Assembly: GCA_002591745.1 (NCBI GenBank)
Contig: PDLQ01000019.1
Location: forward strand, 1-64,000
Source: Lewinellaceae bacterium SD302
GTDB lineage: Bacteria > Bacteroidota > Bacteroidia > Chitinophagales > Saprospiraceae
Direction: 5' to 3'
DNA: 64,000 nucleotides
Shown: positions 43,003 to 47,693 of the stretch, piece after piece
Position numbering within the stretch: the stretch's first letter is position 1
Layout of the letters: every line of letters begins with the position of its first letter
Made by a program: the position numbers and the translations under genes
The notes under the pieces: model-generated
Database searches by the model: none
Seen by the model: the letters and a program-made list of their open reading frames with translations, nothing else
What the model was told of the DNA's origin: nothing

Positions 43003-43183
43003 GCCTCTAAAAAATAAATAAAATTGAATTAAAACCAAGCCTTAAAAGATATTTTATTTCGATAAATTGAATATTTATTTATATTTATTCTTTTCGTGTG
43101 TGAACATCTGATATTGTAATAACGTATCAGCCACCCAAGCATTTTTAAACACCTAATATTTCATAACTCTTAAACCGTTTCGA

Positions 43184-44982
43184 ATGAAACTATTTACCCC
43201 CCCCATTTCATAGCCCTGTTATTCGCGCTTTTCGTGGGTAGTCTTGGTGCCCAAAACACCGATTGTGGTGAGCTTTCCATCGAGAATGTCCAATACCTCG
43301 GTGATGATGCATTTTCCTTCGACATTCGTTTAGAGAACAGCCTAAATCCATCGGATTGTTACACTGGTTTTGAATTCGATGTATCCTTACCCGGTATCCT
43401 CACTATCTCTTCCTCCGTTGCGGCTGGTGTCGAATTGAATTCCAGCGTAAATGGAAGTACGGTCGAGTTTGTCGGTGCTTCTAATGATGCAGATATTCCA
43501 AATGGGCTTCTCGGCTCAGTTACCTTTAGCCAACCCGACGATGGTTGTGTGCAAACCGCGTTGACGATGAGTTCTTCTTTTACTTGTAATCCGCTGACCA
43601 TTTGTGACGGGCCGAGCGCACTACCAGGACCAGAAATTTGCAATACTTTCCTTACCGTAGCGGGTGAAGTGTATAGCCCAGTCCCTGGCATGGGCACCGC
43701 CGAATTACCAGAGTTTGGTATCAGGACTGAAATTGGCGGTGACAAATATGATAATTCAGCAGTATTTAACTCTGTAAACACTGAAAACGAATACATAAAT
43801 GAAGGTATCCCGACCACTGATGCACAAGATGATGGTTTTACGGCGGGTTTGATTGACCCTGCTGAGACCGAGCTAACTTTACCCGATGTCGAAGACGCAT
43901 GTGGTGTAAATATTGTTGACATCATAGCCACCCGTCGCTTATTTTTGGGCCTTGAAGACTTAGTTGGATGGCAAAGAGTTGCGGCGGACGCTAATCAAAA
44001 TGATCTTATTAGTACGCAAGACATAATTTTGATGACTCGGTTAATTCTCGGAATTGAACCGGACCCTTTCGACTACAGTGTGCGATTTCCCACCCCTGCT
44101 AACCTGGATGATCTCGATGACTTATCGATGAATACACAAGATGCTAGTTACAGTGGAACTCGTGCGTGGGAACCATTAGGGTCGAGTCAGGCAGATGTTG
44201 ACTTTGCTGCCGTAAAACTCGGCGACGTTACCGGCGACTGTTTTCTTTTAGGTGCTTCCGACGATCCTATGGACGAACAAGACACCACCAGGCTTACCAG
44301 CACCATCGACTTCACCATAAGTCCTGTATCAGGTACAACCGACCAGTACGAAACTAACTTTTACGCAGCTGATTTCAACGCCAATAGCATCTTAAGTATG
44401 GAATTTTTACTCAACGCAGGTTTCGAGGTTGTTTCCATCGCTGACGGTGCCGTTGAGTTTAGTCCAGACAACCACGTCTTGAAGTCGACGAACGAATCTC
44501 TAAGGTTTATTCACGTGGATTCTACTTTTTCTGGCACCTCCACCCTAATATTCTCAGCCATAATCGAGCAGACCGACCCGAGCGCAGATATCTTGCAGGC
44601 GATTAATCCTGCTCCAGCTAACGGCTACCTCGGTGAACTTTACGTCGGCGAAGACAACGGTGAGGCGGATATCCGCAATCTAACCCTAAATCGCATTACC
44701 ACGCCTCCGTCCACGCCTTCTTCTTCTACAACAAAAGGCAACGCAACCATCTTCCCGAACCCAGCCAACGAAGTATTAAGCTATCGCTTTGATCAACCGT
44801 TAGCCAAGAACGCGACTTTACGGGTGCTTTCTATCTCGGGTCAGCAAATATTGGAAGTTATCCCTGAGCCAAACGCCACCTTCGGTTCAATTAATATCCG
44901 CTCGCTTCCCACGGGTTTCTTTATCCTCACGACCGAGTTTGAAGACGGTTCCATCATTACACATCGTTTCGTCAAGCAATAA
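43184..44982 (+). CDS. T9SS surface protein with cohesin/dockerin-like domains, frame broken at a C8 tract
   Basis: The ATG at 43184 (MKLFTPP) is followed by eight C (43197-43204) and then a stop at 43211 in that frame. With nine C the frame continues as HFIALLFALFVGSLGA|QNTDCGE, a complete signal peptide, into the 580-codon frame. As read, only a signal-less GTG start at 43234 is possible. The mature part has a cohesin-like beta domain (~20-125), a linker, dockerin-like loops (NIVDIIATRRLFLGLED; LISTQDIILMTRLILGIE), a second cohesin-like domain (~350-475) and a T9SS sorting domain (NATIFPNPANEVLSYRF...RFVKQ). Base composition is more AT-rich than its neighbours. Phase variation, pseudogene or sequencing error are all possible. 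Confidence 0.75.
43197..43204 (+). repeat. Poly-C (8) tract in signal peptide
   Basis: Homopolymer at codons 5-7 of the surface protein gene. Eight bases place the start codon out of frame; nine or six would restore it. Confidence 0.8.
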
Positions 44983-44996
44983 TTCTAAACCCTTTT

Positions 44997-45026
44997 CCCT
45001 CTGTACGCTTCGTACAGGGGGATTTT
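44997..45026 (+). terminator. Intrinsic terminator between the two surface protein genes
   Basis: CCCTCTGTACG-ctt-CGTACAGGGGG (one T-G pair) followed by ATTTTT. A textbook hairpin and T-run 15 nt after the upstream stop, so the two genes are separate transcripts. Confidence 0.8.
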
Positions 45027-45040
45027 TAAATTAATGGATG

Positions 45041-47693
45041 ATGAAAAGATGGACCTATCTTGTTATATTTCTTATTCTATATAGCCTACAGTTAAAAACC
45101 CAATTTTTTTTTAGCAGCCATCGAAGGTGGCCTTGCTCAATATAATGCCATCACTTGCGACACAATCCTTTATCCAGAAACCATCCGTCCAGGAGCAATA
45201 GGCCCTAACGGGCTTCTGTATCGAGCATTTAGCGTTTCTTCCGACGACAGCGTTCGTCTCCGGCGTTACGACATAAACGGAGCTAGTTTTAACAACATGA
45301 TCTTACCCGCAAGAGAGGGTTATTTTGACAATACGAATCCTCAGCTAGTTGGCCTCACCAATACCGGCAGTAAATTTATGTTCGCCAGTCGATTCAGGCT
45401 AGGGGAGTACTCTCCAGAAATCGACACAATAAGGCCCTTACCATTATTCAACGGATTCATTACGGGAGACGTAACATATCTTAACGGTCATTATTTCGGA
45501 ATATCACTAAATTTCAATACTGGACAAAATCAAGTTATAAAAATTGATTCCATCAGTGGGCAAATTCTTGACACCATATTCCAAGATGATTTCTTGATTG
45601 CTGATTTAAAGGTAGATTTTCTACCCGGTATCAGTACTGCTGAAGATGATGATTGTAGTGGAGGCTCTTATCTCATTCAGCCTTTCAGGCTACTGGACAC
45701 TAGTGAAAATGCCGATCCCTTTCCTGACTTCGCTCCGTTTGGGGTCGTAATAATTGACCCTGAGAGTGGCACCCACGAAATACGATGCTTACAAGAACAT
45801 CAGGTTACGAACGCGCAAGCGGGATTTTACGATGCGGCATCCCTCGACATTCACCGCCAAACCTGCGAAGTCCGCCTGGACCTGGACGCCGATAATCGCG
45901 CCGGGCGCGTAGGGCCACACTTCCAAAGTTTTCTCATGTGTGCAGATCGCTTTCCTTTAGCCGATGAAGACGTAGAAATCTGGACGGTCGACGACCGTCC
46001 CATTGACTCGATGACGGTCATAATCAAGGACGACGGACCACTGGGAAGTGCCGCGCCGAGTTTACATTATCCAGGCACGGAGGGTTTTACAGTCGTCAAT
46101 CAGGCCGATACGTTGCTGCGGGTATATCCGAACGACCCTAGCGTGGCCGGCAATTACGCAGCATGGACGGCCTTCATTCAGCAAGTGGAACTGGAAATTC
46201 CACTGCCCCGTCCTGAAGGCTATCGGGTAACCGAAATTTTCCTTCACGCCGACGGATTAACTTCCGATAGAGCGAGAAGTTACCTATACGGGCGGCCTGA
46301 TTTTTTTCCTACCGGACGCGACATCACCATTTATGTGTGCCGCAACAATACGGCGCTACCATTCAGCGCTTTGCCCGATGCCTTCCCCGGTGGCCGCTGG
46401 GAACCGGAACTGGGTACTAATTTTCAAGACGATCCATTTTTCGATAATACCGTTCATCCATTCGGCACCTACCACTACATCACGGATTTTGAAAATTGCC
46501 AGCCGGATACCGCCATCGTCCGAATACTACCCCGTCCGGAACCGGAACTGGCTTTCCCCAACCAAAACGACACCGTTTACATCTGCGCGGGCGAAAGTTA
46601 CGTCTTCGACCCTGCCAGCCGACCAAATACAGTCTTTTATTTCTACAATGATTTTTTCCCCGAGAGTTACCGGGAGATTTCAGAACCGGTGACCGTTCAG
46701 GCTTTCGTCAGTTATTTAGACGCTACTACTGGTGGAGATATTATCCCTTGTCAAGAGACCATCTCCCTCACCGTGCTGGACACCACGGCCACGGCCCTCA
46801 CGCGTAACCTGGACACCACCATCTGTGCCGGCGACAGCTTGTACTTAGCCGGTTTCAGCTTTTTCGAGGCGGGGCAGTTTACTTTCACCGCCGGGGGCAA
46901 TGGCTGTGATACACTCTACGACCTCACGTTGAGTTTACAGGAAGAAGAAAGCGCCGAGGTCTCCTTCACCCTTTGCCCCGGCGATAGCCTCCTATTCGGC
47001 GGCCAGGTGTACCTCACGCCCGGCAGCTACGAACTGGCCTCGGCCGGTCCGGGTTGCGACACCCTCTACCAAATTGAGATACTGCCCGCCGAAGTGCCCG
47101 CAGTAAATCTGGACACCAGCATTTGCGTGGGCCAAATCCTGGAAATAAGCGGTGAAGCTTTTTCCGAGGCGGGCAGCTATTTTTTCTCGGTCCCGGCCGC
47201 AGGCGGGGCGGGTTGTGATACGGCCTATTCTCTGCAACTCACGGTAAGACCCCTGGTCCAGTTCGATGCGGACACTATTCTCCAGGAAGGGCAAACCTTT
47301 CAAGCTCCGGGTATACTAGTTTCCGCGCCCATCGATACGGTCTACCAGTGGCCGGGGCAAAACGGCGACTGCGACACCATCGTAAAACTGGTGGTGGATT
47401 ACGTGAGCAGCACGCATGTTCCAGGCTCGGCGATCACCCAGGGCTACCGCATCCAGAATCCGCTGCGGGCCGGGGAGCGTTTCCGGCTCTGGCAGATCAA
47501 CGAAAATGGCACGCCGCAACCAATAGGCTGGCAAGACCTGCAACTGTTCAGTGCGCGCGGGCATTCCACTGGCATCATTTCCTCTGATCGTGAACGCATA
47601 GTAAATGATTTACCGGTCGGGCTGTACTATTACCGGCTACGGACGGTGAACAGTAGTTCTTGGGTAAGTGGGAAGGTCTTGCTTGTCCGTTAG
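45041..47693 (+). CDS. Secreted repeat protein with C-terminal sorting-like domain, frame broken at a T9 tract
   Basis: ATG at 45041 starts MKRWTYLVIFLILYSLQLKTQ, a basic plus hydrophobic export signal, and meets T9 at 45104-45112. The main frame is open from 45096 and reads FFLAAIEGGLAQYNAITCDTILYPETIRP before the first internal ATG at 45297. Removing one T joins the two. The main frame (to residue ~880) ends in four tandem ~48-residue repeats with C-x-GDSL and GCDTLY motifs and a C-terminus GLYYYRLRTVNSSSWVSGKVLLVR that resembles a degenerate T9SS domain. The DNA changes from AT-rich to GC-rich near 45840. No enzymatic motif was found. Confidence 0.7.
45104..45112 (+). repeat. Poly-T (9) tract near the gene start
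   Basis: Nine T between the export signal and the main reading frame of the secreted repeat protein. Eight would place both in one frame. Confidence 0.75.

Follow-up and report, generated by a model that had tools for sequence, protein, structure and literature searches.

A gene of Lewinellaceae bacterium SD302 that appears to encode a secreted protein is interrupted by a run of nine T within the DNA of its signal peptide, and we think it probable, from the sequence features set out below, that this gene belongs to a set of contingency (phase-variable) loci whose products are subject to slipped-strand phase variation of export. The window analysed here covers the opening 64 kb of a contig of 111,508 bases, part of a draft assembly of 5.48 Mb in 147 contigs; all tract lengths come from this one assembly of the species.

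In the proposed mechanism, replication slippage would add or remove units of a simple sequence repeat in the signal-peptide DNA. At one tract length in three the signal peptide and the secreted protein would share a frame (ON), while the other two lengths would bring translation to an early end (OFF), at most an internal start then giving a form of the protein that lacks the signal peptide. Tract length would vary from cell to cell, expression would follow it, and the proteins would be located at the cell surface. On this model the T9 gene and an adjacent gene with a C8 run would both be at an OFF length in the present assembly.

Frame breaks in two adjacent genes

The ATG codons at 45038 and at 45041 lie in one forward-strand frame, which encodes MMKRWTYLVIFLILYSLQLKTQFFFSSHRRWPCSI. 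As assembled, this signal-peptide frame (45038..45145) runs for 35 codons from ATG 45038 (or 45041) to a stop at 45143-45145. The T9 homopolymer at 45104..45112 (+) forms codons 23-25 of the ATG frame and is the point at which this frame and the main frame part. The latter (45096..47693, +) is preceded by TAA at 45093-45095 and is open for 865 codons (45096-47690), the first 67 of which, ahead of ATG 45297, include no ATG, GTG or TTG. Deletion of one T fuses the two frames. An earlier note on this DNA had described a hydrophobic export segment running from ATG 45041 into T9, the 67 codons ahead of ATG 45297 and the joining of the frames by removal of one T, and direct reading bears out each of these points.

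The earlier note also took ATG 45297 to be internal, and coding scores agree. The upstream stretch that would be lost from a protein started at 45297 (45113..45296, +) is coding-like in the main frame only, near the bottom of the coding range: it scores -1.8 in that frame, against -17.8 and -38.2 for the two remaining forward frames and -11.3 for the best reverse frame, where the 1140 coding windows used as reference have a 2.5th percentile of -2.5 and a 97.5th percentile for the best wrong frame of -10.8. The T9 protein matched no Pfam family up to E 0.1; the same kind of scan found no C-terminal Por_Secre_tail domain (PF18962), and the protein is not counted as type IX cargo. An AlphaFold model built on alignment A1 (four rows) had a mean pLDDT of 36 and was set aside. 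Promoter-like matches occurred at chance level only.

The adjacent gene (43184..44982, +) has a main frame of 602 open codons (43174-44979), which encodes HFIALLFALFVGSLGAQ. At its C-terminus the Pfam scan found Por_Secre_tail PF18962 at 29.8 bits (cut-off 27), the sorting domain that marks type IX cargo. A C8 homopolymer at 43197..43204 (+) in the signal peptide is out of frame as assembled, and the product of the ATG 43184 frame ends after 9 codons. Between the two genes lies a terminator-like hairpin (44996..45022, +) of 12 pairs followed by TTTTT, 15 nt before ATG 45038. The repeat tract of the T9 gene is situated in the 5' coding region, as in a contingency gene, and in both genes a change of one unit shifts the frame of an otherwise intact gene (865 and 602 open codons, respectively).

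Relatives of the two genes

No full-length relative of either gene was found in the family genomes searched. The gpmI gene of the window is 66-71% identical to gpmI of Neolewinella and Lewinella records, which puts the organism within Neolewinella or beside it, and at 17 gpmI loci from Neolewinella, Lewinella and Saprospiraceae records, whose ORF lists were judged by eye, no similar neighbour gene was present. The best relative of the T9 gene has 31% identity over residues 243-706, and the whole gene is lineage-specific. Among 298 family genomes, one besides that of SD302 gave a marginal match to the residues from 45096-45860, confined to residues 106-175 and hence outside the region 45096-45297. 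For that region the earlier note had held that an absence of conservation in relatives would count against its reading, and none was detected among the 298 genomes; since this is because orthologues are missing, it provides no argument against coding, which codon statistics still back. A distant homologue of the T9 gene, L007 (G014:C48:27540-31230), is without an intact N-terminal frame and has C9 and signal-peptide-like fragments upstream. Comparison of the N-terminal part of the T9 gene with L009 by BLAST gave nothing convincing.

Long homopolymer runs across the genome

All 32 distinct C/G runs of at least 8 nt in the genome were classified. Seven fall in the signal peptides of long frames, where 0.9 would be expected from the 4-6-nt C/G runs (188/6678; P 2.5e-5). 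This P value, like the other C-run P values, is exploratory, as the idea of phase variation itself arose during inspection of these runs. The signal-peptide runs that are out of frame are the C8 of the adjacent gene (C59:43197), the C8 runs at C77:28975 and C56:18564, C10 at C93:43277 and C13 at C137:64188; those in frame are C8 at C57:101389 and G9 at C1:115031.

Runs of A/T behave differently. After merging of overlaps there are 35 distinct A/T runs of at least 9 nt, three of them within the window. A script flagged 4/35 as lying in signal peptides, compared with 4.9% (701/14400) of 4-7-nt A/T runs (P 0.09), but of these four, one is an artefact and another is doubtful. Since Phe and Leu codons abound in signal peptides, A/T runs within them are little remarkable, an excuse that does not cover the C-runs. 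The T9 break by itself is not beyond chance and, as A/T runs of this length are not significantly enriched, it is included in the set on account of its anatomy and adjacency. The earlier note had considered homopolymer breaks in two neighbouring surface genes unlikely to be coincidence if they are biological. In signal peptides, the genome-wide tests bear out such biology for CA-repeats and C-runs, whose anatomy T9 shares, but T9 taken alone does not stand out statistically.

Several candidates were rejected. The A9 of L078 was flagged by the script, but the run precedes the real ATG; the N-terminus at the T9 of L084 is hydrophobic and not convincingly secreted; the short frame at the C9 of L076 is ambiguous; and the real start at the T8 of L070 apparently follows the run. 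In-frame runs of 7-8 nt were not counted among the tract loci.

Were the true run one T shorter, the T9 gene would be an ordinary gene for a secreted protein, and the break an error of sequencing or assembly. That T9 is not enriched in signal peptides and that the sequence is a draft of 147 contigs both speak for such an error, which we nevertheless regard as unlikely. Long runs inside genes leave frames open in 23 cases (16 C/G runs of at least 8 nt and 7 A/T runs of at least 9 nt), a count that is partly true by definition, as only runs in open frames qualify as gene-internal. For this reason 1.37 Mb were also scanned with a codon model, which gave 115 candidate frame switches. Eight were examined from the best 60 of the 115, and all proved to be gene ends beside new genes, five of them with an overlap that lacks a start codon; none of the eight switches had a run of at least six within 60 nt. 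As no internal break was present among these eight, a general indel error is unlikely to be the cause of the pattern. Frames are also broken by CA-repeats and by a heptamer, as described below.

Dinucleotide and heptamer tracts in signal peptides

A scan for repeats with units of 2-9 nt over 1.37 Mb found eight tracts. Two are in signal peptides and both are frame-breaking: (CA)7 in a PF18962 gene and (TCTTCGC)3 ahead of a frame of 1771 codons. The 5' ends of PF18962 genes were also read, the 150 scored genes being a floor (274 candidates at first look) and 4/150 being cut at an edge. Some repeat was present in 18/150 by a loose rule that counts in-frame 7-nt runs, and two further CA loci came to light, one with (AC)7 out of frame and one with (CA)6 in frame. 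A genome-wide search, made after these CA loci had already been seen, found four (CA) tracts of at least six units, of which 3/4 are in signal peptides of PF18962 genes. At C137:21872-21897 there is a (CA)13 tract that is near no long frame.

The (CA)6 gene and the first (CA)7 gene have 37% identity over 1168 positions, with the tract in the same place and differing in phase. They are full-length paralogues, one in frame and the other out of frame. Outside its own genome, the (CA)6 gene has matches near the C-terminus only.

Two further signal peptides have T9 runs, both in frame, at C77:20559 and C66:46682 (L068, GTG start). Tract-bearing signal peptides are thus found at 14 loci, of which 5 are in frame (4/13 if L068, with its GTG start, is left out). 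One third of 14 is 4.7, and a share near one third is as expected from free slippage; short C/G runs in signal peptides are in frame in 144 cases and not in 44 (Fisher P 0.002 against 5/14). In the nine genes that are OFF as assembled, translation ends after 9-65 codons. The presence of mutS means that no general repair defect is indicated. Collectively, the genome-wide pattern of C-runs and CA-repeats, unlike a lone T9 break, exceeds chance and makes it likely that the T9 break is biological.

RNA polymerase can slip on runs of about nine T or A, and the T9 tract is long enough for this to be considered. Transcriptional slippage there would yield mRNAs of mixed length, so that some protein would always be made from unchanged DNA. 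The breaks at the CA and heptamer tracts would be left unexplained, and the C-tracts would not readily be accounted for, which makes this the least probable of the explanations considered and, in our view, a remote one. It might act at T9 in addition to slippage of the DNA, adding some product.

Two long C tracts, C14 at G000:C56:47616-47629 and C10 at C57:97373-97382, are in no long frame and lie between copies of a TACTTTG motif. Ten copies of CCCGACT (L122 8027-8096; G000:C2:43027-43096) immediately precede a gene whose start is signal-peptide-like, and could be a variable promoter tract.

Products of the tract-bearing genes

The PF18962 domain was identified by Pfam scan in the adjacent gene of the window, L075 and L098, and by genome search in the L066 gene, the three CA genes and, in L101, the stretch following an in-frame stop. 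M12 reprolysin-type metallopeptidase domains were found by Pfam scan in L075 and L101 above the cut-off and in L066 below it. L115 and L118 are lipoprotein-like by eye and have no Pfam match. On the minus strand of G000:C93, at 109423-115368, there are four adjoining genes with type IX sorting domains and open frames of 585-624 codons, which are perhaps a tandem family.

In the reprolysin-like gene L101 (13540-14895, -), the signal peptide contains a C8 that is out of frame. This gene is one of the nine that are OFF, and the in-frame stop ahead of its sorting domain means that it is not otherwise intact. A second lesion of this kind in an OFF gene lends some weight to the idea that the T9 gene is a fixed pseudogene, silenced permanently by a one-base insertion, as does the fact that the T9 gene is lineage-specific and its orthologues were not found. 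In the T9 gene itself the remaining 859 codons after the break have stayed open, which none of 5000 shuffles matched (0/5000), and the break is at a signal-peptide repeat, as in eight other genes. A dead gene is accordingly improbable, slightly more so than an assembly error. We return to phase variation by slippage in what follows.

The tract pattern in related genomes

The pattern ATGA-N{2,32}-C8 has 14 matches in the genome of SD302 against 3 in a reversed control, whereas in 20 other genomes of the genus there are 149 matches against 187; these counts include overlapping matches. Among 29 loci of relatives taken from the C8 search, three were flagged by a loose test and one (L135) was convincing by eye. 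Inspection by eye of 23 distinct runs of at least nine C, in loci from six relatives, placed none in a signal peptide and two just before a start. None of eight (CA) tracts of at least six units in relatives was seen in a signal peptide, two of the eight being near a contig end. The tract-in-signal-peptide pattern is not seen across the genus at large, which weighs against the proposed reading.

A dispersed motif resembling DNA uptake sequences

The commonest 10-mer of the sampled DNA is TGCTACTTTG, with 337 copies in 1.37 Mb, which extrapolates to about 1,340 in the whole genome; the mean for its 30 one-mismatch variants is 5.2 copies. The window has 16 copies where 0.1 are expected, located on the plus strand at 2344, 8023, 13566, 25898, 31808, 41958 (inside gpmI), 47777 and 61037, and on the minus strand at 2188, 7740, 12616, 22828, 25115, 30581, 53745 and 56133. 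The motif has an A-rich tail and an extended form, aaCatTGCTACTTTGnTAGCCaaAA. Neighbouring copies of the 8-nt core, CTACTTTG, that are less than 150 nt apart are inverted by 43 to 4. The motif is about six times as dense outside long frames as within them, and within them the two strands are equal (67, 62). In 17 related loci there is one copy in 224 kb. Abundance, inverted pairs and similar traits mark the DNA uptake sequences of Pasteurellaceae and Neisseriaceae, which, by analogy, TGCTACTTTG resembles. A literature search for DNA uptake sequences together with Bacteroidetes found no paper.

Comparison with known systems and significance

The best-known slipped-strand contingency loci are those of host-restricted pathogens. 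In Bacteroides, phase variation occurs by invertible DNA; surface features are switched there too, and in the same phylum, but by recombinase-driven inversion as opposed to the repeat slippage proposed here. The principle of a repeat switch in a signal peptide is already known. In Neisseria opa, CTCTT repeats are in the coding region of the leader peptide (PMC3960869), the number of units sets the frame of a surface protein, and there are several loci per genome. Those tracts are pentamers and belong to a single gene family in a genus restricted to hosts, whereas in the present genome, known from one assembly, the tracts are of the C, T, CA or heptamer type and the Bacteroidota genes that contain them are unrelated. 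Pfam scans of the T9 protein, the adjacent protein and the products of six other tract genes gave no Opa-type match, and the likeness to Neisseria Opa is in mechanism only. In Helicobacter pylori oipA, CT repeats are in the signal-peptide coding region (PMC6327388), a dinucleotide tract of similar length that is ON or OFF by unit number; oipA encodes an outer-membrane protein of a pathogen and has strain data, in contrast to the CA tracts in type IX secretion genes of a single assembly. According to a survey of 1106 genomes for frame transitions, phase variation may occur in non-pathogens and mostly involves environment-exposed proteins (PMC3711429). A search of the literature on Lewinella, Bacteroidetes and type IX secretion with phase variation and repeats, by titles and abstract openings and with most subscription journals outside its scope, found no such loci.

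More tentatively, and with rather less confidence than we attach to the T9 gene, a Saprospiria lineage, separately from the relatives sampled in its genus, may have evolved a Neisseria-like bank of at least 12 independent switches of four repeat types, which would make the export of type IX cargo, metallopeptidase-like proteins and lipoproteins random; exchange of these loci could be aided by the uptake-like motif, of which the genome has more than 1000 copies. Annotation from internal ATGs conceals the secretion of such genes. If the proposal is true, a bank of signal-peptide switches acting on type IX secretion would be a strategy that arose independently in Saprospiria, and selection in the absence of a host immune system, for instance by phages, predators or changing surfaces, would become open to study.
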